Shown in pieces: positions 5,034 through 42,336 of a stretch of DNA of 64,000 nt. Both the position numbers and the translations under genes were made by a program. The DNA comes from Candidatus Vecturithrix granuli (GTDB lineage Bacteria > Moduliflexota > Moduliflexia > Moduliflexales > Moduliflexaceae): the NCBI GenBank assembly GCA_000739535.1, contig DF820463.1, positions 380,195 to 444,194 on the forward strand, given 5' to 3'. The notes beneath the pieces were generated by a model. It saw only the letters and a program-made list of their open reading frames with translations, did not search any database and had not been told where the DNA came from. Positions within the stretch are counted from its first letter, which is position 1. The number at the start of each line of letters is the position of its first letter.

Positions 5034-5332
5034 CTGATTTTCTTATGTACGTGTAAAAAACTGAGTTTTTTCGAAAAATAATGAACACTTTTTTGAGTCA
5101 AGGAAAATGTGGTCCGAGAAGCACGAAGTTCTGAATCACAGAAAAATGAGGATACTCCTTTTCTGGTTTAGTGCGTCTAAAAGGAGTAAATTTCATTCTT
5201 TCTACAAATCCGAGGGCGAAATAGAAAATCACAAATTAGCACTTGACAATTCTGAATTGCTGCATAACGTGAAAAATTATTTATGAAATCCATTAGATAT
5301 GTATTGATAAGCTTATGACAACGAGGATCGCT

Positions 5333-6616
5333 ATGGATACAGCCCAAATTCATCTCTTGATTGTAGAACAGAATGACACCGCCTCTAATTCATTAACAAG
5401 TGTTTGCCAACAATTGAACTATCACGTCACTTCAGTTCCGGAGGTTGCCCAGGCTTTAAACATACTGCCTGTTCGGGAAAAAACGTTTTCTCAGTCGCCT
5501 GTGTTCGATCTGATCGTGTTTGGGGCTGAGGTGCCTGAGCAAGAGATTTGCCCGTTTCTGGAAAGAATCCAAACCTTCCCTGAGGTCAATGACATTCCGA
5601 CGCTAGTCGCTGCCCATCGTGAAGATACGAAGAAGGTTGTCGCCTGTCTTGAAAAAGGTGCGACGGACTATCTTTTTGATACACATCCCCCTCTGCTATT
5701 AAAAACCCGCATTGATGATTGCGTCGAAATGAAACGGCTGCGCGACCAGGCGCAAACCCATTTAGGGTTGTTACAGCTTGAGCGCGATATGCAAATCGGA
5801 CGCAAGATTCAGACCGATTTTTTACCCAATGTCAATAAATTACCGCGTCCAACCGGGTGGGACATTGTGGCGAAATTTCATCCAGCGCGTCAGGTGGCTG
5901 GTGACTTTTTTGACGCCTTTCCTGTGGGGCGCGATAAAGTCGGGTTGGTCATCGCTGATGTCTGTGATAAAGGGGTTGGGCCGGCGATTTTTATGTCGCT
6001 GAGCCGCAGCCTGCTGCGAGCATTCGCCGAACAACATCGCCCGTTAAATTGGTTGGATAGTCTCACTGGCGAGCTTCCCGCCGAAGAAGTCCAAAAACGG
6101 ATGAAACGCCAGCGTATGCTGCTCTCCGGCGGCACCAGCGCATTGTTGGCGGTTGAATTGACGAATAAATATATTTGTGAAAATCACGGGGATATGAACA
6201 TGTTTGCGACTCTATTTTTTGGAGTGCTTGATCCGGCGACCGGGACGCTGACTTACGTGAATGGCGGACACGATTCGCCGATCATTATTGATTCAACCGG
6301 AAATGTCAAAACCCGCCTGCACCCCACCGGCCCGGCCATCGGCGTAATGTCTGATGTGGATTTTGATATTGAACAAACCACTTTAGACCCTGGCGACCTG
6401 GTGATGATGTTCACCGATGGCGTGACGGATGCCTTGAACCCCCAGGGAGAACAATTTGGAGAAGAGCGTTTGATCTCCTTGTTACAGCAACCCATTGTTT
6501 CAGTCAAGGACATGCTGGATCAGATTGTTGAGAATCTCAAAACCCACATCGCTGAAGCGGACCAGTTTGATGATATTACAATGCTGGCGGCGCGTCATAA
6601 CCCGAAATCGACTTAA
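5333..6616 (+). CDS. SpoIIE/RsbU-type PP2C phosphatase with degenerate receiver domain
   Basis: The 427-residue protein is taken from ATG 5333, which has ACGAGG at 5321-5326. ATG 5315 has no site. Residues 5-120 have a response-regulator fold pattern, but the phospho-acceptor position is Gly64 (D59-LIVF-G64) and the conserved Lys-Pro is replaced by THPP, so it is a pseudo-receiver. A helical linker (LLQLERDMQIGRKIQ) leads to a PP2C domain of the SpoIIE class at about 185-420, with metal-binding Asp in VAGDFFDAF and IADVCDKGVGPA and a later MMFTDGVTDALN. Such enzymes dephosphorylate anti-anti-sigma (STAS) proteins in partner switching. No STAS or RsbW protein is nearby. It is the first gene of a long co-directional block. 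Confidence 0.85.
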   Translation: MDTAQIHLLIVEQNDTASNSLTSVCQQLNYHVTSVPEVAQALNILPVREKTFSQSPVFDLIVFGAEVPEQEICPFLERIQTFPEVNDIPTLVAAHREDTKKVVACLEKGATDYLFDTHPPLLLKTRIDDCVEMKRLRDQAQTHLGLLQLERDMQIGRKIQTDFLPNVNKLPRPTGWDIVAKFHPARQVAGDFFDAFPVGRDKVGLVIADVCDKGVGPAIFMSLSRSLLRAFAEQHRPLNWLDSLTGELPAEEVQKRMKRQRMLLSGGTSALLAVELTNKYICENHGDMNMFATLFFGVLDPATGTLTYVNGGHDSPIIIDSTGNVKTRLHPTGPAIGVMSDVDFDIEQTTLDPGDLVMMFTDGVTDALNPQGEQFGEERLISLLQQPIVSVKDMLDQIVENLKTHIAEADQFDDITMLAARHNPKST

Positions 6617-6641
6617 AGATGGTAGATGAAGGAGGGATTTT

Positions 6642-6986
6642 ATGCCAGGATTTTATGAGCATTTGCTGGATGAACTGGACTCCCAGGGGCCGCAAGATGG
6701 ATTCTCCTCTGTTGATCTGTTGAACTTCCCTCCGGCCATCGCATCACTGATGGGGAGAATTATGCGCAAAAACGGGATGACCTTTGCTGAAATCTCCGAT
6801 GAATTACAGCTATCATCAGAAATGACCCAAAAAATTCTTGATGCCCTTCTATTGAAGGGATTTCTGCGCCAGGTACCTGACCCTCAGGACAACATTGTGT
6901 ATAAAACGAAATTTACACCAAAAACCAGAAGACGTGATCCACACCCAAGAGGACAATCTTTTTTAGACGACCTAATGAAAGAATAG
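6642..6986 (+). CDS. Small winged-helix protein
   Basis: The 114-residue protein has a strong ribosome site (GAAGGAGGG, about 6 bases before ATG 6642). Residues about 28-85 have a winged helix-turn-helix pattern: a helix around LMGRIMRKNG, then MTFAEISDELQLSSEMTQKI, LDALLLKGFLRQV and a wing ending IVYKT. The C-terminus is basic and disordered (KTRRRDPHPRGQS) and ends with an amphipathic FLDDLMKE. It could bind DNA or be a protein-interaction wing. It lies 25 bases downstream of the phosphatase and probably belongs to the same operon. Confidence 0.72.
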   Translation: MPGFYEHLLDELDSQGPQDGFSSVDLLNFPPAIASLMGRIMRKNGMTFAEISDELQLSSEMTQKILDALLLKGFLRQVPDPQDNIVYKTKFTPKTRRRDPHPRGQSFLDDLMKE

Positions 6987-7077
6987 CGAGTAATCAATCC
7001 TGTGATCAGTATAAGAGTGTGAGCAGGGTGAAATATTGCATTTTCAACATTTTCAATTCAACACAAGGAGGAAAATT

Positions 7078-7833
7078 ATGTCAAAGATAATATCGATTCA
7101 TTCTTTTCGAGGGGGAACGGGGAAATCGAATACAACCGCCAATCTTTCGTTATTGTTAGCAGATCAGGGACTGCGGGTTGGCATCGTGGATACGGATATT
7201 CAATCTCCTGGCATCCATGTGCTGTTGGGGTTAGATCCGAATGATATGGTCCATACGTTAAATGACTACCTGTGGGGAAAATGTGAACTGGCTGAGGCAG
7301 CGCACGATATGAGTTCGCACCTCGGCTTGAAGAGCGGCGGACAGATTTTTTTAATTCCTTCGAGCATGAAAGCCAATGATATTGCGCGAATTCTCAAGGA
7401 AGGGTATGATGTCGGGCTGTTAAACGATGGCTTTAATAATGTACTCGATGATCTGGAGTTAGATGTATTGATGATCGATACCCACCCTGGTTTGAATGAG
7501 GAAACGTTGCTTTCGATTGCGATCTCTGATGCGCTAGTGCTGATCATGCGCCCTGATCAGCAAGATATTCAGGGAACCGCCGTGACGATCGATGTCGCCC
7601 GTAAGTTGAGTGTGCCCAATTTATTGCTCGTCGTCAATAAAGCGCCGGATGTGTATGATTTTGATCAACTCAAACGCGATATGGAAAAAGTCTATGACTG
7701 TCCGGTCGCGGCGATTCTTCCCCATTCTGACGAAATGATGGTGTTGGGAGGAAAAGGGGTGTTTTCCTTAAGTTTTCCGGATCACCCTGTGACGTTAAAA
7801 TTGAAACAGGTTGCCGCTCAGTTAATGGCGTAA
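7078..7833 (+). CDS. MinD/ParA-like P-loop ATPase
   Basis: The 251-residue protein is taken from ATG 7078 because AAGGAGG stands at 7065-7071. An in-frame start at 7036 lacks a site. The deviant Walker A motif is RGGTGKSN at 11-18: the P-loop Lys16 is present, but the family signature lysine is Arg11 and the usual Thr is Asn18. The switch region VDTDIQSPG and the DVLMIDTHPGL strand (Walker B) fit MinD/ParA/CpaE-type SIMIBI ATPases. It lacks an obvious C-terminal amphipathic membrane helix. The next gene is a paralogue with the same length and segment order, for example NDYLWGKC against NNYLWGKC. It is probably part of a localisation or signalling module with the phosphatase and the large membrane protein. 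Confidence 0.85.
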   Translation: MSKIISIHSFRGGTGKSNTTANLSLLLADQGLRVGIVDTDIQSPGIHVLLGLDPNDMVHTLNDYLWGKCELAEAAHDMSSHLGLKSGGQIFLIPSSMKANDIARILKEGYDVGLLNDGFNNVLDDLELDVLMIDTHPGLNEETLLSIAISDALVLIMRPDQQDIQGTAVTIDVARKLSVPNLLLVVNKAPDVYDFDQLKRDMEKVYDCPVAAILPHSDEMMVLGGKGVFSLSFPDHPVTLKLKQVAAQLMA

Positions 7834-7938
7834 TTACGCACAGCATCCTGGTTCTCTGACAAGAGAACGTTTTCAATCGTAACCTGACTCATAAAACGAT
7901 GCAGGGTTCCGTGTAACACCTTCTCCTGGAGAAAAGGC

Positions 7939-8697
7939 ATGACGAAGATCATCATGATTCATTCGTTTCGTCGCGGAGTGGGACGCTCGACGATGATCGC
8001 AAATAGTGCGGCGTTATTAGCATTGGAAGGCAAACGGGTGGGGGTGATTGATACGAATATTCAATCTCCCTCGCTTCACTTTTTTTTCCGCCTAAGCGAG
8101 GCAGATATCGGCTGGTCGCTCAACAATTATTTGTGGGGAAAATGTACGCTCGCTCAGGCAATGTATAATGTGACACCTCAGCAAGACTCGGTCGAAATTC
8201 CGGGACAGATTTTTCTCATTCCAGGCACTTGTCAGACCCATGAAATCGCAAGAGTGTTGAGTAACAGCTATAGCTTCCATTCCTTGAATGCTGATATAGA
8301 ATCATGGGCCGAAGATCTCCAATTAGATGTGCTCTTTATTGACCCACGGTCTGGTTTAATCGAGATGACCCTGGCGTCTATTGCGATTGCTGATACCCTG
8401 GTGGTGTTGATGCGTCTTGATCGGCAGGATTTTGAAGGTACAGGAATGATGCTCCATCTGCTTCGGAAGATCGATGTTTCGGAGGTGCTCCTTGTGGTCA
8501 ATGAAGTTCCGAAAGAGTATGAGTTGAATGTCATCAGAAAAGAGGTCGGACAAAAATTACAACATGATGTGGCCGCAGTTATTCCTCATTCTCGAAAGCT
8601 GCTGGCACTGGGGAGTAATGGTTTGTATGCGTTGCGCTACCCTGACGATCCTTTGACAGATTTATACAGACAGATTGCTAAAAAGTTGCTTATCTAA
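7939..8697 (+). CDS. MinD/ParA-like paralogue with broken P-loop
   Basis: The 252-residue protein aligns along its length with its upstream neighbour (HSFR at 8-11, DTNIQSP, NNYLWGKC, IFLIPGTCQTHEIAR, DVLFIDPRSGL). Its Walker A is RRGVGRST at 11-18: the catalytic P-loop lysine is Arg16 and the second Gly is Arg12. Nucleotide hydrolysis is therefore unlikely in the usual way. It may be a regulatory partner that heterodimerises with the intact paralogue, as pseudo-ATPases often do (inference). A GGAG lies just upstream of ATG 7939. The 105-base gap from the first paralogue holds nothing I recognise. Confidence 0.82.
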   Translation: MTKIIMIHSFRRGVGRSTMIANSAALLALEGKRVGVIDTNIQSPSLHFFFRLSEADIGWSLNNYLWGKCTLAQAMYNVTPQQDSVEIPGQIFLIPGTCQTHEIARVLSNSYSFHSLNADIESWAEDLQLDVLFIDPRSGLIEMTLASIAIADTLVVLMRLDRQDFEGTGMMLHLLRKIDVSEVLLVVNEVPKEYELNVIRKEVGQKLQHDVAAVIPHSRKLLALGSNGLYALRYPDDPLTDLYRQIAKKLLI

Positions 8698-8720
8698 ACC
8701 TGGCGAATGTTGGAAGAGAT

Positions 8721-11700
8721 ATGGTAAATTTTTTTTGTACATTATTTAATATTCGAAAAGACGAATGGATGAGTGTTCTTTTTCTTTTTACGATAGCGGC
8801 TCTGGTGACAACCGGATCGATCTGGGGGTCAACCATCGCCTATGCCGCTTTTTTAAAACAAGTTGGACTACACTTATTGCCCTGGATTCTGGTGTTGAGC
8901 GCGATCCTCTCTTTTTTCGCCACAGGAATTTATACGGCCTTTGTTGATCGTATTAATCATCAGAAACTCCTGACGGGAATTTATATTTTTGGCGCTGCCA
9001 GCATTGCTTTAGGATTAACCTTACTCTATTTGAAATTTTCTTCCATTGCGTTTCCAATACTGTATCTGCTCTTCCTGGCAAGGGTCGCTATTTCTAATCC
9101 GCATTTTATTACCTATGTGAATAGTTTTTATGATATTCAATCTGCCAAGCGGGTTCTGCCGGTGATTACCGCCGGTTTTCGAATAGGAAATATTCTGGGC
9201 GGATTGACGACCCCGCTATTACTCGCCTGGTTTGCTTCGGATAGGATTATTACGATTTGGCTTTTAACCTATATCCCTATCGTAGGCCTGGTATGGTTAA
9301 TGCCTTACTTTCTCAGAAAAAAAGGAGCATCCGGTAAACCACCTCATCGGAGTACATCGCTTGTGAAGACAGCTTCAAGAAGACCCTATTTTCTTGATCT
9401 CGAAAATATAAAAGAAGGTTTTAGCTATACGATCCGCTCAAATTATCTGCGCTGGATCGCGATCGGAACCCTTTTATCTATGATACTCCTGGCTTTGATT
9501 GAGTATAAAACCATGGAGCTTTTATTACAGGTCTGTGGTACTCAGGAAGAATTAGCAAGCTTTTTAGCATTAGTGACCGGAATCGCCAATATTTTTGCTT
9601 TGCCGATATTGGTCTTTGCCATCAGCCGCCTTATTACCCTTCTCGGTCTGAACAATGTTATCTTATTTTTTCCCCTGATTAATTTGTTTATCTGCGGTGG
9701 GCTTATTTTTGCCCCGGGCACGCTCAGCGCAATAGGAGCGTATCTTGGTTACTCCGTCTTTCCAGGGATTTTTCAATTCCCGATTGATGGTCTGCTTTAC
9801 AATGCCGTGCCATCAAGAATAAAAGGGCGCGCCTGCGCCTTTGTGAATGGACTGGTTGAACCGATCGGCACCTTAATGGGAAGTCTGTTGCTCTTCATTC
9901 CGGTGTTGGTCACAAGCTGGTGGATGATTCCGTTGATTATTGGAATCCTGGCGCTGGCGTATGTTGCCAATACCCTGGTCATCCGCAAACAATATCGTAT
10001 CGCCTTAATCAAAATGTTAGAAGAGGAAGATTTCTCATTTATGCTTCCACAAGAAAGCTCAGATATTACCACAACGGATCCTATTATCCTTGCCCAGTTA
10101 GAAAAAAAGCTCAAAGAGAGTACCAGTCGAGAATTGACCGTGTTTATGGCTCAACTTATCAGCCAAACTGGGAGCCATGAAGCCGGAAAAATTTTGAGAA
10201 GAGCGATAGACAACGCGACAGACGCCAGAATGCGTTCAGCAATTCTTGATGTCATGGCGGCCTCAAATCTGAAGGGTGACATCGTACGCGATACATATAC
10301 CACGTTCCTTGCTGATCCGGATGAACAGGTTCGACAATCAGCCTTTATCGGCCTGGAACAATTGATGGGCATTAACAATAAGCAGTTTGTCGCCCTGGCC
10401 GTCAACATGTTGAACGATTCCAGTACGCAAGTGCGTATCCGCGTCCTTTCTGCACTCAGCCAAACCCGCGATTTTTATCTGATGCCCTCTGCCATGAATG
10501 TGCTGAATGCATTTCTTGCCGATGATGCGCCGAGCCTTCGCGCTCAGGGAGTTCAAATCCTCGGACAAATCGAAGAGGAGGGAGCTTTAGTGAGATTGGC
10601 TGAGTATGTGAATGACCCGGCTGATGAGGTGCGGTTAGAAGCGGCGACAGCCATTGAAGCCCGTATTCACAGCATCAATGGTCATCCATCAGGAACTCTG
10701 TTTGTGGCAAAAATGGAAACCTTGCTCCATGATCCGGTGGAACGTGTGCGTCAGGCCGCTTTGCAAGTGATCGGACATGGCTGCAAACAGAATCGAGATT
10801 TGTATCCAAAACTGATTGAAGCGTTATCTGATAGTAGTCCGCATATCAGAGCAACCGCAGTGAATAACCTGACGCACCTGGGAAAATCAGTCATTTCGGT
10901 TCTTCATCCGAAATTAAACTCGCCTCAACTGGATTTACGTAAAATGGTTGCGGTGGTATTGTGCCGGATTCAGCCGGAAGAATTTGGACCCCTGGTCAAC
11001 ACGAGTATTCAAGGAAACCTCCTGAACATTTATCAGCAGTACGCGATCTCAGACATGCTTGGAAGCTACCAGAGTTCTTTTGGACTCATGATCCTTCAAA
11101 AAGTCCTGAATGATCGCAATCAGCAACTTCTTGATGAGATTTTTTATCTGATGTCTGCGATGCACGATGCTGACGCGGTTCAATTGGTGAACGAATCGCT
11201 GCATAGCAAGGAGTTGAGCCTGAGAGCCAGTGCGATGGAGGTGTTAGAAACAATGACCAACCCCAAAACCGCAAGGCTCATGTCTCCGTTCTTTGATCCG
11301 GAACACCAAGCAGAACAGATCCTCTCGATTGGGAAAGATGTATGGGATTTACCCCAGCCGGACATGGCAAAGACGCTTCGAACGTTTCTCGCCACTCCTG
11401 AAGAACCCTGGTTGCGAACGATTGCTACCTTTGTTTTAGGTGAATTGGGAGCTTCCCTGACTCCATCCCCGCGACCCCCTCAACCTGCTATTCTTCCGGA
11501 TAAGCCCAGGGTCACATTCAAATTATTAGATGAGACAAACAGTGAAAACCGTGAAATCAACAATGGCGAAGGCGCTTCAGAACATATAGGGAGTAGGAGG
11601 AGGACGGCGCGGCGCGCGGTCAAACCCGATCTGTTGAGTCTCCTTTCCGATGAAGCGTCTCCAGAGACCGCGCAAACTTCAGCGCTGCCTGCTGTTGCCC

Positions 11701-12386
11701 CCGAAACGAAAGAATCTGACGCAATAGATCGCCCTTCAGATTCCGCTCCCACGATATTCACGCTACCAGAAATCGAAACGCTGCTAGCCAGTTCTCTTGC
11801 CGATTCGGATGAGGAGGTGCGTTTTACCGCTCAAATCGCCCAACGGATGATCGCAGGGCTCAGGAAAAAAGATCTTCTACAAAAGGAGCATGTCATGCTT
11901 TCAGCTATTGAAAAAGTGATTTTTTTAAAACAGGTATCATTCTTCCAGGGAATGACGATAGAACAACTCAAAGTGCTCGCCAATGTCTGTGAAGAAGAGT
12001 TCTTTCCGACAGATACGCACCTGTTTCATCAGGGAGAATCCGGCGTCAATTTATATGTCATCGTGAATGGTCGTGTGGGGATTGAACAGGAAAAACGCAA
12101 AGGCTCCTTTGTCAGAGTCAATACACTTGAAGCGTATTCCTATCTCGGCGAAGTATCGGTGTTTGATGCCAGTCCGCATACGGCGGATGCTATTGCCATC
12201 CAGGATACTCTGACCCTGCGAATCAGCCGTGAACACCTGTTAGCGTTAGCCCGGCAGCATCCAGAGCTCTCGCTGCAATTAATTAACGCGCTTAATAAAC
12301 AGTTACGCCATGCCTACGATCGTATTGCCGAACTGACTCGTTCCAGACCGCGAGAATTGCACAAATTATTCGATCAATTTGACTGA
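8721..12386 (+). CDS. Large membrane protein: transporter-like domain, HEAT repeats and cNMP-binding-like domain
   Basis: The 1221-residue protein has three parts. Residues 1-430 carry about 12 hydrophobic segments in the pattern of MFS or nucleotide (ATP/ADP) exchange transporters, with charged cytoplasmic loops. Residues about 455-900 are helical HEAT-like repeats (recurring D-x-x-x-x-V-R-x-x-A-x-x-A/L units such as DPDEQVRQSAFIGL, DDAPSLRAQGVQIL and DPVERVRQAALQVI). After a disordered stretch, residues about 1055-1180 match a cyclic-nucleotide-binding fold (HQGESGVNLYVIVNGRV, then LGEVSVFDASPHTADA). The phosphate-binding cassette has the Glu but a His where the ligand-binding Arg is expected, so cAMP binding is doubtful. 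It ends 19 bases before the NRPS start codon. It may be a sensor or scaffold rather than a transporter. Confidence 0.8.
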   Translation: MVNFFCTLFNIRKDEWMSVLFLFTIAALVTTGSIWGSTIAYAAFLKQVGLHLLPWILVLSAILSFFATGIYTAFVDRINHQKLLTGIYIFGAASIALGLTLLYLKFSSIAFPILYLLFLARVAISNPHFITYVNSFYDIQSAKRVLPVITAGFRIGNILGGLTTPLLLAWFASDRIITIWLLTYIPIVGLVWLMPYFLRKKGASGKPPHRSTSLVKTASRRPYFLDLENIKEGFSYTIRSNYLRWIAIGTLLSMILLALIEYKTMELLLQVCGTQEELASFLALVTGIANIFALPILVFAISRLITLLGLNNVILFFPLINLFICGGLIFAPGTLSAIGAYLGYSVFPGIFQFPIDGLLYNAVPSRIKGRACAFVNGLVEPIGTLMGSLLLFIPVLVTSWWMIPLIIGILALAYVANTLVIRKQYRIALIKMLEEEDFSFMLPQESSDITTTDPIILAQLEKKLKESTSRELTVFMAQLISQTGSHEAGKILRRAIDNATDARMRSAILDVMAASNLKGDIVRDTYTTFLADPDEQVRQSAFIGLEQLMGINNKQFVALAVNMLNDSSTQVRIRVLSALSQTRDFYLMPSAMNVLNAFLADDAPSLRAQGVQILGQIEEEGALVRLAEYVNDPADEVRLEAATAIEARIHSINGHPSGTLFVAKMETLLHDPVERVRQAALQVIGHGCKQNRDLYPKLIEALSDSSPHIRATAVNNLTHLGKSVISVLHPKLNSPQLDLRKMVAVVLCRIQPEEFGPLVNTSIQGNLLNIYQQYAISDMLGSYQSSFGLMILQKVLNDRNQQLLDEIFYLMSAMHDADAVQLVNESLHSKELSLRASAMEVLETMTNPKTARLMSPFFDPEHQAEQILSIGKDVWDLPQPDMAKTLRTFLATPEEPWLRTIATFVLGELGASLTPSPRPPQPAILPDKPRVTFKLLDETNSENREINNGEGASEHIGSRRRTARRAVKPDLLSLLSDEASPETAQTSALPAVAPETKESDAIDRPSDSAPTIFTLPEIETLLASSLADSDEEVRFTAQIAQRMIAGLRKKDLLQKEHVMLSAIEKVIFLKQVSFFQGMTIEQLKVLANVCEEEFFPTDTHLFHQGESGVNLYVIVNGRVGIEQEKRKGSFVRVNTLEAYSYLGEVSVFDASPHTADAIAIQDTLTLRISREHLLALARQHPELSLQLINALNKQLRHAYDRIAELTRSRPRELHKLFDQFD

Positions 12387-12405
12387 AAAGAGGGAACTGA
12401 GCAGT

Positions 12406-15400
12406 ATGGAGAAGTATGATCAGTTTTGTTGCTTTCTCATCGGAGAAGGTAGCCTTCCGGTCCAATGTGGCAATCTCCTTTTAGAATGCAAACATGGCAT
12501 CTGCGGAATGATTTCGCCGGATGCCACTGTGCGCCAATGGGCCGAGCAGCGCAAGATTCCCTGCTATGCTCCGACTGACGATCTTGTCCATATTTTAGGA
12601 AAACAACCCTTCGATTATCTTTTCAGTATCGTCAATAGCACGGTCATTCCTGCCAATGCCTTGAAATTGCCCCGGAGATATGCCATTAATTATCATAATG
12701 CGCCGCTGCCAAAATACGCCGGCACGAACGTGGCTTCTCATGCCATCATGCACCAGGAAAAATTTCATGGGGTCACATGGCATGTGATGACCGAGAGCGT
12801 GGATGCGGGCGACATCTTAAAACAACACACTTTTCCTATTGGAGCGCATGAAACAGCTCTGAGTTTGAATACTAAATGTTATGAAGCCGCGCTGCACTTA
12901 TTCGGTGAACTTGTTGAGGAACTTGCTTGTGGGCGCATTCACCCGATTCAACAAAATTTAACGGAACGAACGTATTTTGGACGCTATCAGCGTCCCCCTG
13001 CCGCCTGTCTGCTTGATTGGAACCAGGAAGCTCAGGTTATTGATGCAATGGTACGAGGGTTGACCTTTGGGAATTATCCTAATCCTCTGGGGCTGCCCAA
13101 GATGCTTGTTGGAAAGACGTGTCTGGCCGTCGCCGCGTTGGAGGTGACCGATATTCCTTCGCAAAATCCACCCGGAACAATTACAATGATAACCCCAGAG
13201 ATACTCACGATTGCCACTGGCACCTTCGATGTGAACATTTGTCAGATTACAAGACTTGATGGACACCCACTTTCCGTCGTGGAATGCGCAGAACAATTCG
13301 ATCTCCGTGTAAAAGATGTGCTGCCGCTTCCATCAGTTGACCTATCTCGTCGTCTTACTGAAATTCATGCTCAGATTTGCCGACACGAATCTTTTTGGAT
13401 CAAGTGTTTAGAAACTCTCCAGCCAATGCCTCTGCCATATAGTATCCATCTTGCAAATCCCTCAGCAACAGGCCATATCGAGTGTATCACCATGAATGTT
13501 CCGGCTCCGGCTGACAGCGATTTTTTCCTGGCAGCTTGCATAACATATTTTGCACGGCTCAACAATCTTTACCAAGGCGATATTGCCTTTTGTTACCCTG
13601 AATTACGCCAGAAGCTTGACGGCCTAGAGCCATTTTTTGCGATGTACGTGCCTTTTCACCTGCACCTGGATGATACGCAGTCTTTGTGTGTAAACCAACA
13701 AGCCATATACACCGAGATAAGCCGTGTGAAAACCCGTCAAACCTACATGCGCGATCTGGTTGCCCGTTTTCCTTCTCTTCATTCAAAAACAGAACTCCGT
13801 GCTCAGGCAATTTTACCTGTCGCTGTCGAAGTGTTTGAGGGGGAAAATCTGCTATCTGTCTCGTCTGATGCGTATTTGACGCTGAGGATAAAGGGGAATG
13901 GCGCGGTATGCCATTGGATCTATAAGACAGGCTGGTTGAAGCCGGATGACGTGGCCCGGATGGCGCATTATTTTGAAACCTTTGTCTCTGCCCTGCTCGC
14001 GCAGCCGGAACAGCCCTTAGCCTGTGTTCCTTTGTTAACGCCAAAGGAACAACATCAGATTCTTTATGAATGGAATGCAACTCAGGCTGAGTATCCCCAC
14101 ACCTCTTGTCTGCACCAAATCTTTGAGGCGCAAGTCAGAAAAACGCCTGAAGCAATCGCGGTCGTGTATGAAGATGCGCAGCTCACGTATCGGGAATTGA
14201 ATCAGCGCGCCAATCAATTGGCTCATTATCTACGGAAATCAGGGGTAGGCCCCGAAGTGCTGGTTGGCTTGTGCCTGGAACGGTCTTTAGAAATGATCGT
14301 CGGATTGTTGGGCATTTTGAAAGCTGGCGGAGCGTATGTGCCTTTCAATCCTGAGGATCCAAAGGAACGTTTAGCATTCATGCTGGAAGATACGCAGGCA
14401 TCAATACTCCTCACCCAACAAGCACTCTTAGCTCATATACCTGAGCAGAGAGTACAGGTGATCTGTATAGATACACACTGGAAAACAATTTCGCGTGAGA
14501 ACGAGAATGACCCTGAAAATAGCACGTTGCCCCAGAACATAGCGTATGTGATTTACACGTCAGGCTCAACAGGGATCCCAAAAGGCGTGGTGATTCAACA
14601 TCAGTCAGTCCTGAATTTATGGAACGGATTAGCTCATAGTATCTATGCTCAGAAGATCAGGGATTTACTAAGGATTAGCCTGAATGGCCCCTTAACGTTT
14701 GATACATCGGTGAAACAATGGGTTCAACTTCTGAGCGGTCATACCCTCTATGTGATCCCGGCAAGGATGCGATTTCATGGGAATGCGTTGCTCAATTATC
14801 TCCAGCAGCATAAAATTGATGTTTTCGATTGTACTCCCTCTCAGTTAAAGTTACTGCTTGAAGTTGGAATGTCAAAAGATGCCCCTGGTAAGGTACTCGT
14901 TGCCGGAGAAATGATTGAGGACGCAACCTGGCAAGAATTAGCCCCTCAGACAGTAACAACATTTTATAACCTATACGGGCCAACGGAATGTACTGTAGAT
15001 ACAACGGTCTGTCAAATAAGTGCTGTTTCTCACACACCGACGATTGGACGTCCACTTTCGAATATCCAGGTGTATATCCTGGATCCTTCTTGCCAACCTG
15101 TGCCGGTTGGCATCTCTGGTGAGCTTTACATTGGCGGTGTTGGACTGGCGCGAGGATATTTAAAGCGTGCTGACACGACAGCTGAAAAATTTGTGCCGCA
15201 CCCTTTTAGTTCTCAGCCAGGGGCACGTATGTATAAAACCGGCGACCTTGCGCGTTATTTGCCCGATGGAAATATCGAGTTCCTCGGCCGGAGCGATCAC
15301 CAGGTTAAAATTCGTGGTTTTCGAATTGAACCAGGAGAAATTGAAACAATAATATCTGAAAATCCTCTGGTGCAGGATGCTGTTGTGTTGGTACGCGAGG

Positions 15401-15924
15401 ATATCCCTGGCGATAAACGCTTGGTTGCGTATGTTATCCCTGCTCAGGGAGAACATCCAACATCTCGAGAACTACGGAATGCGCTCACAGAAAAATTGCC
15501 TGGCTACATGATTCCAGCGGCGTTTATCCAGGTAGAGCGTTTCCCGCTGACGCCGAATGGCAAGATCGATCGTCGCGCTTTTCCGCCTCCCGATTGGTCT
15601 CAAAGGCAGGGAAAATATGATATAGTTGCTCCGCGTACCTCTACAGAGCGCATTTTGGCCGAGATTTGGACGGAAGTATTAGAGATAGAACACATAAGTA
15701 TTGATGATAATTTTTTTGAGATAGGAGGTCATTCGCTTTCAGGTATGCGTATCCTTTCCCGCTTGCAAGCCATCTTGCACATCTCGTTGCCTCTTCACAC
15801 GCTCTTTGAGTCCCCCACCGTGGAAAGTCTGGCTCGCGCTGTCGACGCCGTGCACTGGGCCATTCAACATCAGCAAGAACCGTCTTCCCCAGCCGATAAT
15901 GAGCGCGAGGTGGTTGTATTATGA
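12406..15924 (+). CDS. NRPS starter module: formyltransferase, partial condensation, adenylation, PCP
   Basis: The 1172-residue protein is taken from ATG 12406 with AGAGGG upstream. A TTG at 12379 would overlap the previous gene. Residues 1-300 are a formyl-tetrahydrofolate-type transferase. The catalytic Asn95-x-His97 and Asp133 keep the 38-residue spacing of methionyl-tRNA formyltransferase, and a C-terminal lobe (LTFGNYPNPLG) follows. Residues about 312-555 look like only the C-lobe of a condensation domain, with no HHxxxDG. Residues about 563-1060 are an adenylation domain (YVIYTSGSTGIPKG, NLYGPTE, YKTGDLARYLPDG, NGKIDRRAF). The PCP attachment Ser1110 is in GGHSL. My hand-read specificity residues, D-T-K-D-L-A-L-V-D, resemble glutamate codes. 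The likely role is loading and N-formylating the first residue of a peptide. It overlaps the next gene by ATGA. Confidence 0.87.
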   Translation: MEKYDQFCCFLIGEGSLPVQCGNLLLECKHGICGMISPDATVRQWAEQRKIPCYAPTDDLVHILGKQPFDYLFSIVNSTVIPANALKLPRRYAINYHNAPLPKYAGTNVASHAIMHQEKFHGVTWHVMTESVDAGDILKQHTFPIGAHETALSLNTKCYEAALHLFGELVEELACGRIHPIQQNLTERTYFGRYQRPPAACLLDWNQEAQVIDAMVRGLTFGNYPNPLGLPKMLVGKTCLAVAALEVTDIPSQNPPGTITMITPEILTIATGTFDVNICQITRLDGHPLSVVECAEQFDLRVKDVLPLPSVDLSRRLTEIHAQICRHESFWIKCLETLQPMPLPYSIHLANPSATGHIECITMNVPAPADSDFFLAACITYFARLNNLYQGDIAFCYPELRQKLDGLEPFFAMYVPFHLHLDDTQSLCVNQQAIYTEISRVKTRQTYMRDLVARFPSLHSKTELRAQAILPVAVEVFEGENLLSVSSDAYLTLRIKGNGAVCHWIYKTGWLKPDDVARMAHYFETFVSALLAQPEQPLACVPLLTPKEQHQILYEWNATQAEYPHTSCLHQIFEAQVRKTPEAIAVVYEDAQLTYRELNQRANQLAHYLRKSGVGPEVLVGLCLERSLEMIVGLLGILKAGGAYVPFNPEDPKERLAFMLEDTQASILLTQQALLAHIPEQRVQVICIDTHWKTISRENENDPENSTLPQNIAYVIYTSGSTGIPKGVVIQHQSVLNLWNGLAHSIYAQKIRDLLRISLNGPLTFDTSVKQWVQLLSGHTLYVIPARMRFHGNALLNYLQQHKIDVFDCTPSQLKLLLEVGMSKDAPGKVLVAGEMIEDATWQELAPQTVTTFYNLYGPTECTVDTTVCQISAVSHTPTIGRPLSNIQVYILDPSCQPVPVGISGELYIGGVGLARGYLKRADTTAEKFVPHPFSSQPGARMYKTGDLARYLPDGNIEFLGRSDHQVKIRGFRIEPGEIETIISENPLVQDAVVLVREDIPGDKRLVAYVIPAQGEHPTSRELRNALTEKLPGYMIPAAFIQVERFPLTPNGKIDRRAFPPPDWSQRQGKYDIVAPRTSTERILAEIWTEVLEIEHISIDDNFFEIGGHSLSGMRILSRLQAILHISLPLHTLFESPTVESLARAVDAVHWAIQHQQEPSSPADNEREVVVL

Positions 15925-18900
15925 GACCTGTTTCTGAGCTGTTAGCAGATCTTCGAAATTCAGGAGTCCACATTCTGGTCAACGGCGAAGAACTGCATCT
16001 AAACGCCCCAAAAGGCAGCCTGACCCCAGACCTGCGCGCTGAAATTGCTCAACGCAAAGCGGACATCCTGGCGTTTTTCCGGGCGGTGGCGAGCGGCGGC
16101 TCGCAAGCATCGTCGCCCATTCCGGTTGTTCCGCGAGATACGCCTCTGCCCCTGTCTTTTGCCCAGCAACGCCTCTGGTTTTTGCACCAATTCGAGGAAG
16201 AACAACGGGGACTGTACAATGTGTCAAAAGCTTTTCAGCTTCACGGTCGGCTTGATATCCAGGCATTGGAACAAAACGTGAGCGCCATTGTGCGTCGTCA
16301 CGAGGTGTTGCGGACAAGCTTTGCCATGCATAACGGCGATCCGGTACAAACAATTCTGACTGACGCCAGAGTGCCCTTCTCCATCCGGGATCTCCAAGAT
16401 CTTTCACCGCAAGAACAGGCTGACAGCGTTCAACACTTCGCGGTGCAAGAAGCGCAACGCCCCTTTGATTTGGAGCAGGGACCCTTACTGCGCGTGCTGC
16501 TGCTGCGTGTCGCGCCAACAGACCATGTTGTAGTGCTGACGATACACCATATTGTGTCAGACGCTTGGTCAACCGGAATCTTGTTTCAAGAACTCGCGCA
16601 CATCTATCAGGCCTGGGTCACAGGAGAACCGGTTTCTTTGCCCGATCTCCCGATCCAGTATGCCGACTTTGCGGTCTGGCAGCGAAATTGGCTTCAGGGT
16701 GATCGCTTAGAGCGATTAACGGCTTATTGGAAAAATCAATTGGAGGCCATCCCTCCGATCCTGGAACTCTCTATAGAACATCCCCGCCCGGCGATTCAGA
16801 GTTTTCAGGGAAAGACTCTGAGATTTTCCCTGAACGCTGCTCTGTGCCAGAAATTAACGACGTTGAGTCAACAAGCAGGAGCGACGCTCTTTATGACGCT
16901 TTTGGCGGCGTTTGTCAGTTTACTTGCGCGTTATAGCGGGAGTAATGATATTGTCGTGGGGTCGCCGATTGCCAATCGCAGACATCCGGCGTTGGAATCG
17001 TTGATCGGCTTTTTTGTGAATACGTTGGTGTTGCGGGTGAATGTTGCGGAGAATCCGACATTTTTAGACGTGCTCCAACAAGTGCGAAAGGTGACTCTGG
17101 AGGCTTACGACCATCAGGATCTCCCTTTTGAACGGTTAGTTGAAGTTTTGCAGCCGGAACGGAACCTCCATTCATCCCCTCTTTTTCAGGTGATGTTTGT
17201 TTTCCAAAATGCGCCTAAAACCCACATGGAACTATCCGGGTTAACCGTAAAATCGCTCGAATTCGATCCTGGAATCGCTAAATTTGATCTCACTCTGGGC
17301 TTTATAGAAACTGAGCATGGAACATTAGACGGAACCATCGAATATGCTACAGATTTGTTCGATGCTGAGACGATCACGCGCATGATCGGCCATTTGCAGA
17401 CAATTCTCACTGGCATTGTCCAGGATCCCCAGAAATATATTTCGGATTTACCTCTGTTAACTCAGGCGGAGCGACAACAAATTTTAGAGCAATGGAACGA
17501 TACTCACGTCAGTTATGCGGAACAAGGCTTCCTTCCTGAGCTTTTTGAAGCGCAAGTGCAGCATACGCCGGACGCAACCGCGGTTGTATTTAACAATACA
17601 CCTTTGACGTATCAGGAACTGAATCAACGCGCTAATCACGTCGCGCACTACCTGAGGAGTTTAGGCGTTGGACCGGAAGTGCTGGTCGGGATTTTTGTTG
17701 AGCGTTCGCTGGAAATGATGGTCGGATTACTGGGGATTTTAAAAGCTGGAGGAGCGTATGTTCCTCTTGATCCGGAATTTCCCCAGGCGCGTTTACAGTT
17801 TATGATAGATAATTCAGGGGTTTCAGTGTTGTTAACCCAAAAGGCTTTAGAAAAGAAACTCCCGTCCAATCAATCCCAAAAGGTGTTTCTTGATGCCGAT
17901 TGGGAAAACATCGCTGTCACAAGCGAAGGCAATCTTGTGCATGGCCTGCACGGAGCGAATCTGGCGTATGTGATTTATACTTCAGGTTCAACAGGTCTTC
18001 CCAAAGGCGTCCAGATTTCGCACAACGCGCTGCGTAACTTCTTGCTCTTCATGCGTCAACAATTGGGGGTTACAGCCAGGGATGCGTTGCTCGCTGTCAC
18101 CACGCTGTCGTTTGATATTGCCGGTTTAGAACTATTTCTGCCCTTGATAGCAGGTGGAACAGTTGTGCTGGCCGACCGGGAGACAACGCTGGATGGCCGT
18201 CGGTTAAGCGAACGATTAGAGCAATGCGGCGTGACGGTGATGCAAGCAACCCCTGCGACGTGGCGGCTCATGTTAGCATCCGGGTGGCGCAACACCGCAG
18301 AATTGCGAGCGTTATGCGGTGGTGAGGCTCTTCCGCGCGACCTGGCCGCGCAGTTGCTTAATGGCGTCGCGTCGTTAAAGAACCTGTATGGCCCCACAGA
18401 AACCACAATATGGTCGTCGTTGCATCAGGTTACCTCTTCAGACCAGACCATTCCGATTGGCAGACCCATAGGCAATACTCAATTTTATATCCTGGACGCT
18501 TCTTTTACCCCTACGCCAGTTGGGGTGGCCGGGGAATTATATATCGGAGGCGCGGGTTTGGCGCGCGGATATTTCAAACGCCCAGACTTGACGGCTGAAA
18601 AATTTGTGCCGCACCCCTTGAGTTCAGTCCCCGGAGAACGATTATATAAAACCGGCGACCAGGTCAGATATTTGCCCGATGGCAATATTGAGTTTCTTGG
18701 GCGTCGCGACGATCAGGTCAAAATTCGAGGTTTCAGAATTGAATTGGGCGAAATTGAGACAGCATTATCCGAATATCCTGCCATACGTCAGGCTGTTGTT
18801 GTTGTGCAAGGAGACGATTTGCAGAGCAAACGTATCGCGGCTTACCTTGTGCCCCAGGATAATTCCGTTTCAATTGAAACGTTGCAGGGATTTCTGAAAG

Positions 18901-21011
18901 AAAAACTGCCTGACTATATGATCCCATCGGTATTTGTGTTTTTAGATGCGCTGCCGTTAACCCCGAATGGGAAAATAGATCGCCGCGCTTTACCATCTCC
19001 TGGCTCAGAGCGGCCCCGATTGCAAGCGCAATATGTTGCCCCGCGTACGCCTGTTGAAGACCTGCTTATCGGTATCTGGAGTGATCTCTTAGAACTTGAG
19101 CACATCGGTATTCATGATGATTTCTTTCAATCAGGCGGGCATTCTTTGCTCGGCACACAGCTTATCTCCAGGATTAGTCAGACATTCGGTATACACCTTC
19201 CTCTACGTGTGTTATTTGATAGACCGACGGTGGCTGGATTAGCAGAACTGATTGCGAACAATGATATCCTCCTGGGACAGGAGACTATGATTCCTCGTGC
19301 GCCCTTCGCATGCGCAAGAGAGTATAAGGAAGGGTTTCCGCTTTCGTACGCACAGCAACGTTTATGGTTCTTTGAACAACTTGAACCGGGAAATGCGGTG
19401 TATAATTTTCCGATGATGCTCCAATTGAATGGGCAGCTTCATATCTCTGCTCTGCAACAAAGTTTGGATGAAGTCGTTCGCCGCCATGAGATCTTGCGTG
19501 CATATTTTGTAACAATTCATGGCGAGCCGCGGCAGCGTATTGCTCCTGTCGCAAGCATTCCTGTACTAATTAGAAATCTGCAACATTTGTCGCCAACAGA
19601 GCAGATAATCGAAGTCCAGCGGCTGGTCGTCGCAGAGGTCCTGCAAGGTTTTGATCTTGCACGAGGGCCGCTATTGCGCGCCAGTTTGCTGCAATTAGCT
19701 GAATCAGAATACATCCTGTTTTTCATGATCCATCATATTGTGTTTGATGAGTGGTCAAAAGGAGTGCTTTTGTGGGAGTTATCAATGCTGTATGAGGCCT
19801 TTGCGGCTGGAAAGCCTTCTCCTTTGGCTGAACTTCCAATCCAATATACGGATTTTGCATGCTGGCAGCGGCAACAGTTGCAGGGAAAGGTCTTTGAGGT
19901 ACAATTGGACTATTGGAAAAAGACACTTGCCGGGAAAATCCCTCTCATGCGGCTTCCGACCGATCGGCCGCGACCGCGTATTCAAACCTTTCAGGGCGCA
20001 ACCTACTCGTTCATGTTTTCTCAATCCCTGATGAAGACGTTGAAAATATTGAGCCAACATGAGAATGTCACCTTATTCATGACGCTGTTGGCAGCCTGGA
20101 AAATCTTATTGTATCACTATACCGGCTTAGAGGATGTATTTGTTGGTACGCTGATTGCGAACAGAAATGTCAAGGAGAGCGAGGATCTGATCGGATTTTT
20201 TGCCAATACCCTCGTATTGCGCACCGATCTTTCCGGGAATCCGACTTTTCGGGAATTACTGAGACGGGTACGAGAAGTGACGTTGGGAGCGTATAGTCAT
20301 CAGGATATGCCCATCGAGAAACTTGTAGAAATTCTGCAGCCAGCGCGCAGTCTGAGGTATCATCCTTTTTTCCAGGTTTTATTTGTGTTTCAAAACACTC
20401 CAATGGAGAAATTAGAACTTCCCGGGGTGAGCGTGACCACATTAAAACCCCGGAACATGACGGCCCTGTTTGATTTGGAATTGTACATCCGTGAGGCAGA
20501 AGAGGGATTACAGGGCAATCTGGAATATAAAACAGACCTTTTTGATGAAGCCACGATGATCCGTTTAATCCAGCATTTTCAGACGATCTTAGAAACAGGC
20601 GTTGCTCATCCTGATTGGCGCATGACAGAATTTCCTCGTGTCTATCCCACTAAACAAGAGCAGAACAATATTCCTGGCATTCTTTCTGAGTCTGACCTGG
20701 GAATTTATCCGATTCCATCCGTTACCGCAAACGCATCTATCTCTTCCCTGTCTTCTCCTGAAAACACGCTATGCGCAATATGGTCTAAAATTTTGGGAGT
20801 AAAAGATGTTGACATTTATGATAATTTTTTTGAATTAGGAGGATATTCCCTGTTAGCTGCGCAGCTTATTTTTCAGGTGAACGCCGTTTTTCACGTTGAA
20901 ATTGCCTTGCGCAGTTTTTTTGAAAATCCAACGGTGGCTGGATTGACGCAAATTATAAGTCGTTTATCTGAGCAAAAAGAGGTTATGACCAGGGTAAGAG
21001 AGAGTTTCTGA
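15921..21011 (+). CDS. NRPS: docking, C-A-PCP, C-PCP
   Basis: The 1696-residue protein starts at ATG 15921 inside the ATGA overlap, so translation is coupled to the first NRPS. Residues 1-55 match the TubC-type N-terminal docking domain (LLADLRNSGVHILVNGEEL, then LTPDLRAEIAQRKADILAFF). C1 spans about 72-500 with H209-H210-IVSD. The A domain spans about 532-1020, and the hand-read code D-I-L-Q-L-G-L-I-W equals a published glycine code as I remember it. PCP1 has Ser1075 in GGHSL. C2 spans about 1150-1590 with HHIVFDEW near 1270. PCP2 has Ser1643 in GGYSL. There is no thioesterase or reductase, and the last module lacks its own A domain, so a partner may load PCP2 or another protein may release the product. 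Confidence 0.88.
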   Translation: MRPVSELLADLRNSGVHILVNGEELHLNAPKGSLTPDLRAEIAQRKADILAFFRAVASGGSQASSPIPVVPRDTPLPLSFAQQRLWFLHQFEEEQRGLYNVSKAFQLHGRLDIQALEQNVSAIVRRHEVLRTSFAMHNGDPVQTILTDARVPFSIRDLQDLSPQEQADSVQHFAVQEAQRPFDLEQGPLLRVLLLRVAPTDHVVVLTIHHIVSDAWSTGILFQELAHIYQAWVTGEPVSLPDLPIQYADFAVWQRNWLQGDRLERLTAYWKNQLEAIPPILELSIEHPRPAIQSFQGKTLRFSLNAALCQKLTTLSQQAGATLFMTLLAAFVSLLARYSGSNDIVVGSPIANRRHPALESLIGFFVNTLVLRVNVAENPTFLDVLQQVRKVTLEAYDHQDLPFERLVEVLQPERNLHSSPLFQVMFVFQNAPKTHMELSGLTVKSLEFDPGIAKFDLTLGFIETEHGTLDGTIEYATDLFDAETITRMIGHLQTILTGIVQDPQKYISDLPLLTQAERQQILEQWNDTHVSYAEQGFLPELFEAQVQHTPDATAVVFNNTPLTYQELNQRANHVAHYLRSLGVGPEVLVGIFVERSLEMMVGLLGILKAGGAYVPLDPEFPQARLQFMIDNSGVSVLLTQKALEKKLPSNQSQKVFLDADWENIAVTSEGNLVHGLHGANLAYVIYTSGSTGLPKGVQISHNALRNFLLFMRQQLGVTARDALLAVTTLSFDIAGLELFLPLIAGGTVVLADRETTLDGRRLSERLEQCGVTVMQATPATWRLMLASGWRNTAELRALCGGEALPRDLAAQLLNGVASLKNLYGPTETTIWSSLHQVTSSDQTIPIGRPIGNTQFYILDASFTPTPVGVAGELYIGGAGLARGYFKRPDLTAEKFVPHPLSSVPGERLYKTGDQVRYLPDGNIEFLGRRDDQVKIRGFRIELGEIETALSEYPAIRQAVVVVQGDDLQSKRIAAYLVPQDNSVSIETLQGFLKEKLPDYMIPSVFVFLDALPLTPNGKIDRRALPSPGSERPRLQAQYVAPRTPVEDLLIGIWSDLLELEHIGIHDDFFQSGGHSLLGTQLISRISQTFGIHLPLRVLFDRPTVAGLAELIANNDILLGQETMIPRAPFACAREYKEGFPLSYAQQRLWFFEQLEPGNAVYNFPMMLQLNGQLHISALQQSLDEVVRRHEILRAYFVTIHGEPRQRIAPVASIPVLIRNLQHLSPTEQIIEVQRLVVAEVLQGFDLARGPLLRASLLQLAESEYILFFMIHHIVFDEWSKGVLLWELSMLYEAFAAGKPSPLAELPIQYTDFACWQRQQLQGKVFEVQLDYWKKTLAGKIPLMRLPTDRPRPRIQTFQGATYSFMFSQSLMKTLKILSQHENVTLFMTLLAAWKILLYHYTGLEDVFVGTLIANRNVKESEDLIGFFANTLVLRTDLSGNPTFRELLRRVREVTLGAYSHQDMPIEKLVEILQPARSLRYHPFFQVLFVFQNTPMEKLELPGVSVTTLKPRNMTALFDLELYIREAEEGLQGNLEYKTDLFDEATMIRLIQHFQTILETGVAHPDWRMTEFPRVYPTKQEQNNIPGILSESDLGIYPIPSVTANASISSLSSPENTLCAIWSKILGVKDVDIYDNFFELGGYSLLAAQLIFQVNAVFHVEIALRSFFENPTVAGLTQIISRLSEQKEVMTRVRESF

Positions 21012-21110
21012 GTTTACCGCATCAAGGAAAATCCTTGTCGGATGTCTCAACTTTTGAGAGAGATTCTCGTCCATCTCTTTGAAAACATTTTATCTGTAAA
21101 AGGAAGCATA

Positions 21111-21231
21111 TATACTTGAGACCGCATAAATTTGTGACAATCTCACCCCCTTCCCCCTCTCCTAATTTAGGAGAGGGGGGACTGAGGGGGAGTGGTCAAA
21201 AAAATCACAAATTTACCCGGCCTCAAGTATA
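21111..21231. mobile_element. MITE-like element, family 2, copy A
   Basis: The 121-bp element begins TATACTTGAG and ends CTCAAGTATA. The ends continue as near-inverted repeats (CATAAATTTGTGA against TCACAAATTTACCC). Inside is a C-rich stretch followed by its G-rich complement around CTAATTTAG. The same element is at 42217-42336. It lies in the 325-base gap between the NRPS and the peptide-binding protein. Nothing else in that gap is recognisable apart from the start region of the next gene. Confidence 0.68.
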
Positions 21232-21336
21232 GATTGAAATTAATTTTTCGACAGACGTACGGTATGCCCAATCAGAAGTGGGACCATCGTTCCGAACGAT
21301 AGGATCTCTGGCGGCAACCGAGGTGGGAGTAACGAT

Positions 21337-23244: not shown

Positions 23245-23298
23245 GAACGTAAAAGAGAAAGAATACAATCCCTTCACAACATATTGGGGACATCTAAC

Positions 23299-42216: not shown

Positions 42217-42336
42217 TATACTTGAGACTGCATAAATTTGTGAACACCTCACCCCCTTCCCCCTCTCCTAATTTAGGAGAGGGGGACTGAGGGGGAGTGG
42301 TCAAAAAAATCACAAATTTATGCAGTCCGCAGTATA
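42217..42336. mobile_element. MITE-like element, family 2, copy B
   Basis: The 120-bp element begins TATACTTGAGACTGCATAAA and ends TGCAGTCCGCAGTATA, inverted with a few changes. The interior is almost identical to 21111-21231. It sits about 55 bases upstream of the GGDEF gene, so it could affect that gene's promoter. Confidence 0.68.

Follow-up and report, generated by a model that had tools for sequence, protein, structure and literature searches.

Nine co-directional genes around a nonribosomal peptide synthetase pair in Candidatus Vecturithrix granuli: a candidate sensor-controlled cluster

Why is a pair of nonribosomal peptide synthetase (NRPS) genes preceded by genes for a phosphatase, a winged-helix protein, two ParA-like ATPases, and a transporter-like protein with additional domains? 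This question is raised by a stretch of 64,000 nt from the genome of Candidatus Vecturithrix granuli (assembly GCA_000739535.1, contig DF820463.1, positions 380,195 to 444,194 of the forward strand), which is called the window in the following and whose first letter is position 1. The analysis of open reading frames and Pfam domains revealed a block of nine co-directional genes on the plus strand (5315-25236), which includes, downstream of the NRPS genes, the genes for an orphan solute-binding protein (SBP) and for a sensor with a short C-terminal tail. The nine genes look like a real and apparently undescribed signalling-and-synthesis system. A preliminary description of the region knew of no described system with this gene set, and none was found in the open-access literature.

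We propose tentatively, at a little under an even chance for the whole chain of steps, that the block is a self-contained, sensor-controlled NRPS cluster, which the lineage of the window and Chloroflexota probably share through horizontal transfer. The proposal builds on the observed gene content, gene order, conservation, intact catalytic motifs, domain folds, and the association of the sensor tail with ParA. Its steps, named here with falling certainty, would be an interaction of the tail with ParA, the pairing of SBP and sensor, an output via the SpoIIE phosphatase and the winged-helix protein, the role of the transporter-like protein, and the nature of the peptide product.

The block and its recurrence in Chloroflexota

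The block and the elements within it are as follows:

5315-6616, plus strand: response-regulator-like/SpoIIE-type PP2C phosphatase (PF07228, 157 bits; Response_reg 28.8 bits versus a cut-off of 30.2)
6642-6986, plus strand: small winged-helix (wHTH) protein, MarR-like (MarR score just below the cut-off)
7078-7833, plus strand: ParA1, ATPase of the ParA/MinD superfamily (AAA_31 and CbiA above the cut-off; P-loop HSFRGGTGKSN)
7939-8697, plus strand: ParA2, second subfamily (Walker A Lys replaced by Arg, RRGVGRST)
8721-12386, plus strand: transporter-fold/HEAT/cNMP protein (HEAT_2, cNMP_binding; NTT/MFS-fold membrane part by structure model)
12379-15924, plus strand: NRPS1 with formyltransferase, partial C region, A, and T (Pfam, A code, motif check)
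15921-21011, plus strand: NRPS2 with TubC docking domain and C-A-T-C-T (Pfam, A code, motif check)
21154-21178, no strand assigned: palindrome, core of a long hairpin (fold z = -5.1; second copy at 42260-42284)
21337-23244, plus strand: orphan SBP_bac_5 protein, the SBP, of the peptide-binding type (PF00496, 203 bits)
23284-25236, plus strand: sensor with 4HB/CHASE3-HAMP-GAF and C-terminal tail (Pfam; structure model)
25042-25188, plus strand: 49-aa C-terminal tail of the sensor, REQSLKQEIKQLRIEIDEAKREKQVKEITETETFQSLQAKAAELRRRRQ, common to many ParA-linked sensors (BLAST and profile)

The seven genes from the phosphatase to NRPS2 were all present as the preliminary description had named them, and the intergenic distances (in order 25, 91, 105, 23, -8, and -4 nt) agree with its statement that the gaps are mostly below 110 nt and that the NRPS pair is coupled. 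Its start of the SpoIIE gene matches an internal ATG at 5333. Its end of the block at 21011 turned out to be too short, because the block runs to 25236 with the SBP gene, which follows NRPS2 after 325 nt, and the sensor gene, which follows after another 39 nt. The tail of the sensor, which provides the most informative clue, therefore lies outside of the block as originally delimited. The genes directly upstream are encoded on the opposite strand. Promoter-like matches were found without clear excess over shuffled sequences (9 versus 12.2 and 9 versus 6.4), and terminator-like matches were slightly above the shuffles in one case (12 versus 7.9) and below in the other (3 versus 5.6).

A ParA profile scan across named genomes, of which the best 80 matches were used, yielded at least 79 loci, by title mostly from Chloroflexota and some from cyanobacteria and others. 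Three of them contain ParA, the transporter-fold/HEAT/cNMP protein (transporter-HEAT-cNMP protein in the following), and NRPS in the order of the window. An alignment search with the transporter-HEAT-cNMP protein gave matches in 23 of 396 genomes of a class set and 7 of 400 of a phylum set; no homologue was found in cyanobacteria at E 1e-60 (0 of 292, in a set without a positive control), and a plasmid search with the protein matched generic domains only. Its gene is situated directly 5' of an NRPS gene in ten Chloroflexota loci (L037, L038, L041, L154-L158, L166, and L178; in related loci, genes were called mechanically), and therefore the arrangement is not due to chance. Of the seven loci in which the junction of the two genes was measured, the window, L038, L156, and L157 have overlapping genes (-4 to -17 nt). 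ParA1 is present in seven of the ten NRPS-linked loci, and the wHTH domain is found as a standalone protein in L041, L156, and L157 and fused to the C-terminus of a cyclase in L037, L038, and L166. The view that the signalling genes belong with the NRPS is thus borne out by their recurrence in another phylum and by the overlapping junctions.

The front of the block is more variable than had been proposed. A fixed core of five genes was rejected; its parts recur, but no other locus with the exact set was found, and SpoIIE is mostly replaced by a class III cyclase-AAA protein. The latter is the upstream signalling gene in seven Chloroflexota NRPS-linked loci (assigned by Pfam domains in L037 and L041 and by full-length similarity in the others), while a 1271-aa protein with a similarity to it of only 23-24% takes this place in two loci, and L178 contains neither within the stretch read. 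As to gene order with and without NRPS, the linkage was found in ten loci, but transporter-HEAT-cNMP homologues outside of the NRPS-linked clade described below occur without NRPS (L159-L165, L167-L172, L076, and L180-L183), and therefore the front part also exists alone. In L162, L164, and L165 the SBP, a tail-bearing sensor, and ParA copies adjoin the transporter-HEAT-cNMP gene, with no NRPS in the stretch read.

In a maximum-likelihood tree of 29 transporter proteins, all NRPS-linked proteins including that of the window fall into one clade of 13 rows (99/99). The window groups (100/100) with L037, L157, and L166, all of which have NRPS with formyltransferase starters; this grouping fits horizontal transfer. 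In the two other rows of the clade, L112 and L145, the contig ends before an NRPS could show, and therefore a single origin of the NRPS linkage is compatible with the tree. When both are scored as 'no group', the linkage label needs three changes, compared to 9.1 in shuffles.

The sensor tail and the ParA-like ATPases

With the last 70 residues of the window sensor as query, BLAST recovered this segment from many proteins that differ in their other parts, in which it is preceded by Cache, PAS, GAF, FHA, HAMP, receiver/HisKA, or cNMP domains. No Pfam domain was found in the tail region, and NCBIfam matches lie on other parts of the proteins. Residues R1, L12, D17, and F34 of the tail are invariant. 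A profile of the tail matched in 50 of 88 ParA-anchored loci, and 80 of the 85 matches are situated at most 40 residues from the C-terminus; in L037, L038, and L041 the tail was also found further downstream. Among 22 genomes, the tail was present in all 12 with the ParA family of the window and in none of the 10 without it (Fisher 1.5e-6), whereby ParA loci had led to the 12 genomes, which are thus no random sample, and the thresholds for ParA and tail differ. In the reciprocal direction, 40 cyanobacterial tail loci were examined, and 17 of them contain a ParA of the same family at a distance of at most about 7 kb, compared to about 0.3 expected under an assumed ParA density. Therefore, the association of tail and ParA is strong, but not exclusive. 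The window genome encodes a second tail, on a sensor of similar make-up that is 60% identical and has no adjoining ParA of the family (L192 11920-13887, minus strand, contig C20 of G000). The distance between this sensor gene and a MinC/MinD/MinE-like set is about 4 kb; in the set, a MinD-like gene, read by eye, is situated between minC- and minE-like genes (L192 17221-19210).

Both ATPases have the deviant Walker A P-loop NTPase fold, with AAA_31, CbiA, and ParA above the cut-off, and the first Lys of the deviant signature is an Arg in the ParA family of the window. The NCBIfam cut-offs for MinD were not reached (minD_arch 87.5 versus 201.75 bits, minD_bact 55.3 versus 212.9 bits). ParA1 has an intact P-loop and is 62-74% identical to its listed relatives in Chloroflexota and other groups; ParA2 is 43% identical to ParA1 and is among the very few of 173 family members examined that lack the P-loop Lys. 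In four genomes of the own phylum, no close ParA was found beyond those of the window. A second ParA is encoded 3' of the sensor in L173, L174, and L176, and a SpoIIE gene is located directly upstream of a same-family ParA in eight other loci (L028, L033, L043, L044, L092, L097, L110, and L111). Further neighbours of the family are AGE epimerase, STAS, and GlgX genes on Deinococcus, Nostoc, and Streptomyces plasmids (L028, L031, L033; with SpoIIE in L028 and L033). RiPP-precursor-like genes and a cNMP-binding protein adjoin it in L030, L032, and L234, with an NHLP exporter in L030, which suggests that the family may be used with ribosomal peptides, too. In Elainella, a wHTH domain is fused to ParA (L097 5084-6190).

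ParA/MinD ATPases are recruited and switched through short conserved segments of partner proteins, and we infer that the 49-aa tail is such a partner, i.e., that it would bind or activate ParA1 and ParA2 as the peptides of ParB, MinE, McdB, and TlpT do for their ATPases. The analogy lies in an ATPase of the superfamily and a linked protein that bears a short conserved segment at its terminus. In contrast to the known systems, the tail has no Pfam match and is carried by many kinds of sensors, and the first Lys of Walker A is replaced by Arg. The ATPases could instead serve spatial organisation, which is nearest to the idea of the preliminary description: the ParA pair would position the sensor array and/or a membrane-tethered synthase, comparable to McdA/McdB for carboxysomes and PpfA/TlpT for receptors, and no peptide autoinduction would take place. 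ATPases of this superfamily together with a short conserved tail on membrane sensors fit that explanation, as does the translational coupling of transporter and NRPS, but the lack of the P-loop Lys in ParA2 does not, and we regard positioning as rather unlikely, though as a serious rival. The front genes may thus control the timing or the membrane position of peptide synthesis, as the preliminary description suggested.

Proposed signal reception and output, and the predicted peptide

The adjacent arrangement of an SBP and a HAMP sensor is present in the window and conserved. The SBP gene is found 3' of the NRPS in L154, L156, L173, L174, L176, and L179, and the sensor gene in the same loci except L156; SBP and sensor are usually present in NRPS-linked loci when the sequence reaches far enough. 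The counterparts at the corresponding position of those Chloroflexota NRPS clusters that are covered best share 50-57% identity with the SBP and 57-59% with the sensor of the window. No transporter genes adjoin the SBP gene, the N-terminal segment of the protein serves as a membrane anchor, and its best relatives in the PDB are peptide-binding proteins (2d5w and AppA, 1xoc). The structure model of the sensor (overall pLDDT 69) contains a long periplasmic helical bundle of high confidence and is of low confidence past the HAMP domain; a kinase domain was not found with Pfam.

TorT-TorS and LuxP-LuxQ are pairs of an SBP and a sensor. By analogy, the orphan SBP would bind a peptide outside of the cell and pass it to the helical-bundle sensor, and both would signal through the tail and ParA. 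The window likewise has a dedicated periplasmic binding protein beside a long helical-bundle HAMP sensor, but this sensor lacks a histidine kinase, and its C-terminal part consists of GAF and the ParA-linked tail.

The output to gene expression may be brought about by the SpoIIE phosphatase and the wHTH protein, and in Chloroflexota by the cyclase, often with the same wHTH. The latter is 41% identical over 96 aa to that of L041 (9515-9859) and was detected as a standalone protein in 39 of 88 ParA loci; its correspondence with the cyclase C-terminus was missed by pairwise BLASTP and recovered by a profile search. For the phosphatase, the HmpU/HmpV/HmpW partner switching system of Nostoc can be used for comparison (PMC8256260). 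The window protein shares the SpoIIE phosphatase domain and the receiver-like N-terminus, and in related loci SpoIIE and ParA are accompanied by STAS and HATPase partners.

The protein that is coupled to the NRPS consists of a membrane domain with 12 transmembrane segments of the NTT/MFS fold (8721 to about 10250), HEAT repeats, and a cNMP-binding domain (about 11997-12260). The model of 8721-10250 (pLDDT 82) has the NTT fold, and its best PDB matches are the ATP/ADP translocators AtNTT1 and Chlamydia NTT1 (9j3l, 9j3m, 9j3n; E about 1e-7, TM score 0.60-0.67). The family profile PF03219 was not matched by the window protein, which gave a sub-threshold MFS_1 match only, while the Chloroflexota homologue of L037 passes the Pfam TLC/PF03219 cut-off. 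Unlike in the NTT proteins, the membrane part in the window is fused to HEAT and cNMP domains and coupled to an NRPS gene. The protein might be the exporter of the product or the membrane anchor of the synthase, under the control of a cyclic nucleotide.

NRPS1 starts with a formyltransferase (PF00551 and PF02911 above the cut-off) ahead of A-T. Its N-H-D residues are intact (NYHNAPLPKYAG and DAGDIL), the GGHS motif of the T domain is present, and the catalytic motifs of the NRPS are intact. The best PDB matches of this region are to linear gramicidin synthetase LgrA, with which it shares the formyltransferase-A-T start including N-H-D. In contrast to LgrA, a partial C region separates formyltransferase and A in the window, the line is short with two proteins, and the A code differs; NRPS2 ends with C-T, and neither a thioesterase nor a reductase was found with Pfam. 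The A codes, which were read by alignment to a gramicidin S synthetase reference segment, are DTKDLALVDK for NRPS1 (Glu/Gln-like by resemblance) and DILQLGLIWK for NRPS2 (Gly-like). In the other NRPS-linked loci they resemble, as we read the published codes, Asn, Asp, Pro, Thr, Val, or Lys; all these substrate calls are putative and serve as leads. The product could be a short N-formyl peptide, perhaps with a formyl-Glu/Gln-Gly start, and it may itself be the signal that is sensed. One conserved product across loci was rejected, because A codes and release domains differ, with a terminal reductase in L157, a thioesterase in L156 and L176, and a methyltransferase in L041 and L156. The constant gene chassis is thus predicted to carry a variable peptide.

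The variety of products would also be expected if SBP and sensor detected foreign peptides from nutrients or competitors and switched on the synthesis of an NRPS product that serves defence or inhibition, e.g., the reductive-release product predicted at G885. The general oligopeptide type of the SBP is in favour of such a trigger. However, a conserved receptor pair with varied products also fits rapid signal diversification, and a foreign trigger, too, appears rather unlikely to us, though it is a serious rival.

Weighing of the cluster model and additional observations

Several points weigh against the proposed sensor-controlled cluster, in addition to the sampling of the ParA-positive genomes mentioned above. 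In 23 of the 40 cyanobacterial tail loci no same-family ParA is nearby. The repeat-bearing gap of 325 nt 5' of the SBP gene could split the transcript, and the contamination of the source genome bin is 10.75%. In contrast to HmpU/HmpV/HmpW, Pfam revealed no STAS antagonist and no anti-sigma kinase among the nine block proteins (the rest of the genome was not searched), and no cyclase adjoins the block in a genome that is rich in class III cyclases. In the phosphate-binding cassette of the cNMP domain, GE is kept and the position of the Arg is occupied by His (SPHTADA; relatives have Arg, His, or Tyr), and therefore the binding of a cyclic nucleotide is uncertain. If the peptide is the signal, the receptor must co-vary with it, since the predicted peptides differ between loci. 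The signal, the cargo, and the biochemistry of the model are predictions.

A more far-reaching version would be a widespread undescribed architecture in which the common tail of diverse sensors drives ParA/MinD-type ATPases and in which, here, the NRPS peptide is a self-made signal for the SBP-sensor pair; we regard it as doubtful. If true, ParA/MinD ATPases would, through the common tail on sensors with Cache, PAS, GAF, FHA, HAMP, or cNMP input, act as hubs of signalling in general in Chloroflexota, cyanobacteria, and other lineages. The NRPS version would be a case, open to direct tests, in which a nonribosomal peptide is linked to the genes for its receptor and output.

Could the block be an ordinary NRPS cluster beside common regulatory genes, brought together by chance and kept together by shared transfer only? 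Signalling genes are abundant in the window genome (about 12 SpoIIE and 18 cyclase-domain matches), and horizontal gene sharing has been reported for filamentous bacteria including KSB3, cyanobacteria, and Chloroflexi (PMC6390638). However, the linkage was kept in one clade across transporters that are only 40-47% identical, the genes overlap, and tail and ParA co-occur genome-wide, which makes a chance assembly improbable. It is very improbable that the block serves conflict or immunity, with the ParA-like ATPase, HEAT, and cNMP modules as guards of the cell and an effector made by the NRPS. In favour of this are a sub-threshold KGGVGR ATPase match, weak PADLOC matches of the HEAT and cNMP parts, and NB-ARC or CHAT proteins near ParA in L029 and L031, but PADLOC detected no complete match to a known defence system, a nuclease or toxin effector was not found, and the conserved SBP-sensor pair better fits sensing.

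Two additional observations concern the remainder of the window. The 25-nt palindrome in the gap between NRPS2 and the SBP gene is identical in its two copies, which possibly represent a small dispersed repeat element. Downstream of the block, PADLOC identified defence genes of the Hma type, namely, the HmaA helicase (28193-31594), the HmaB methylase (32507-35053), and the HmaC ATPase (35961-38528).

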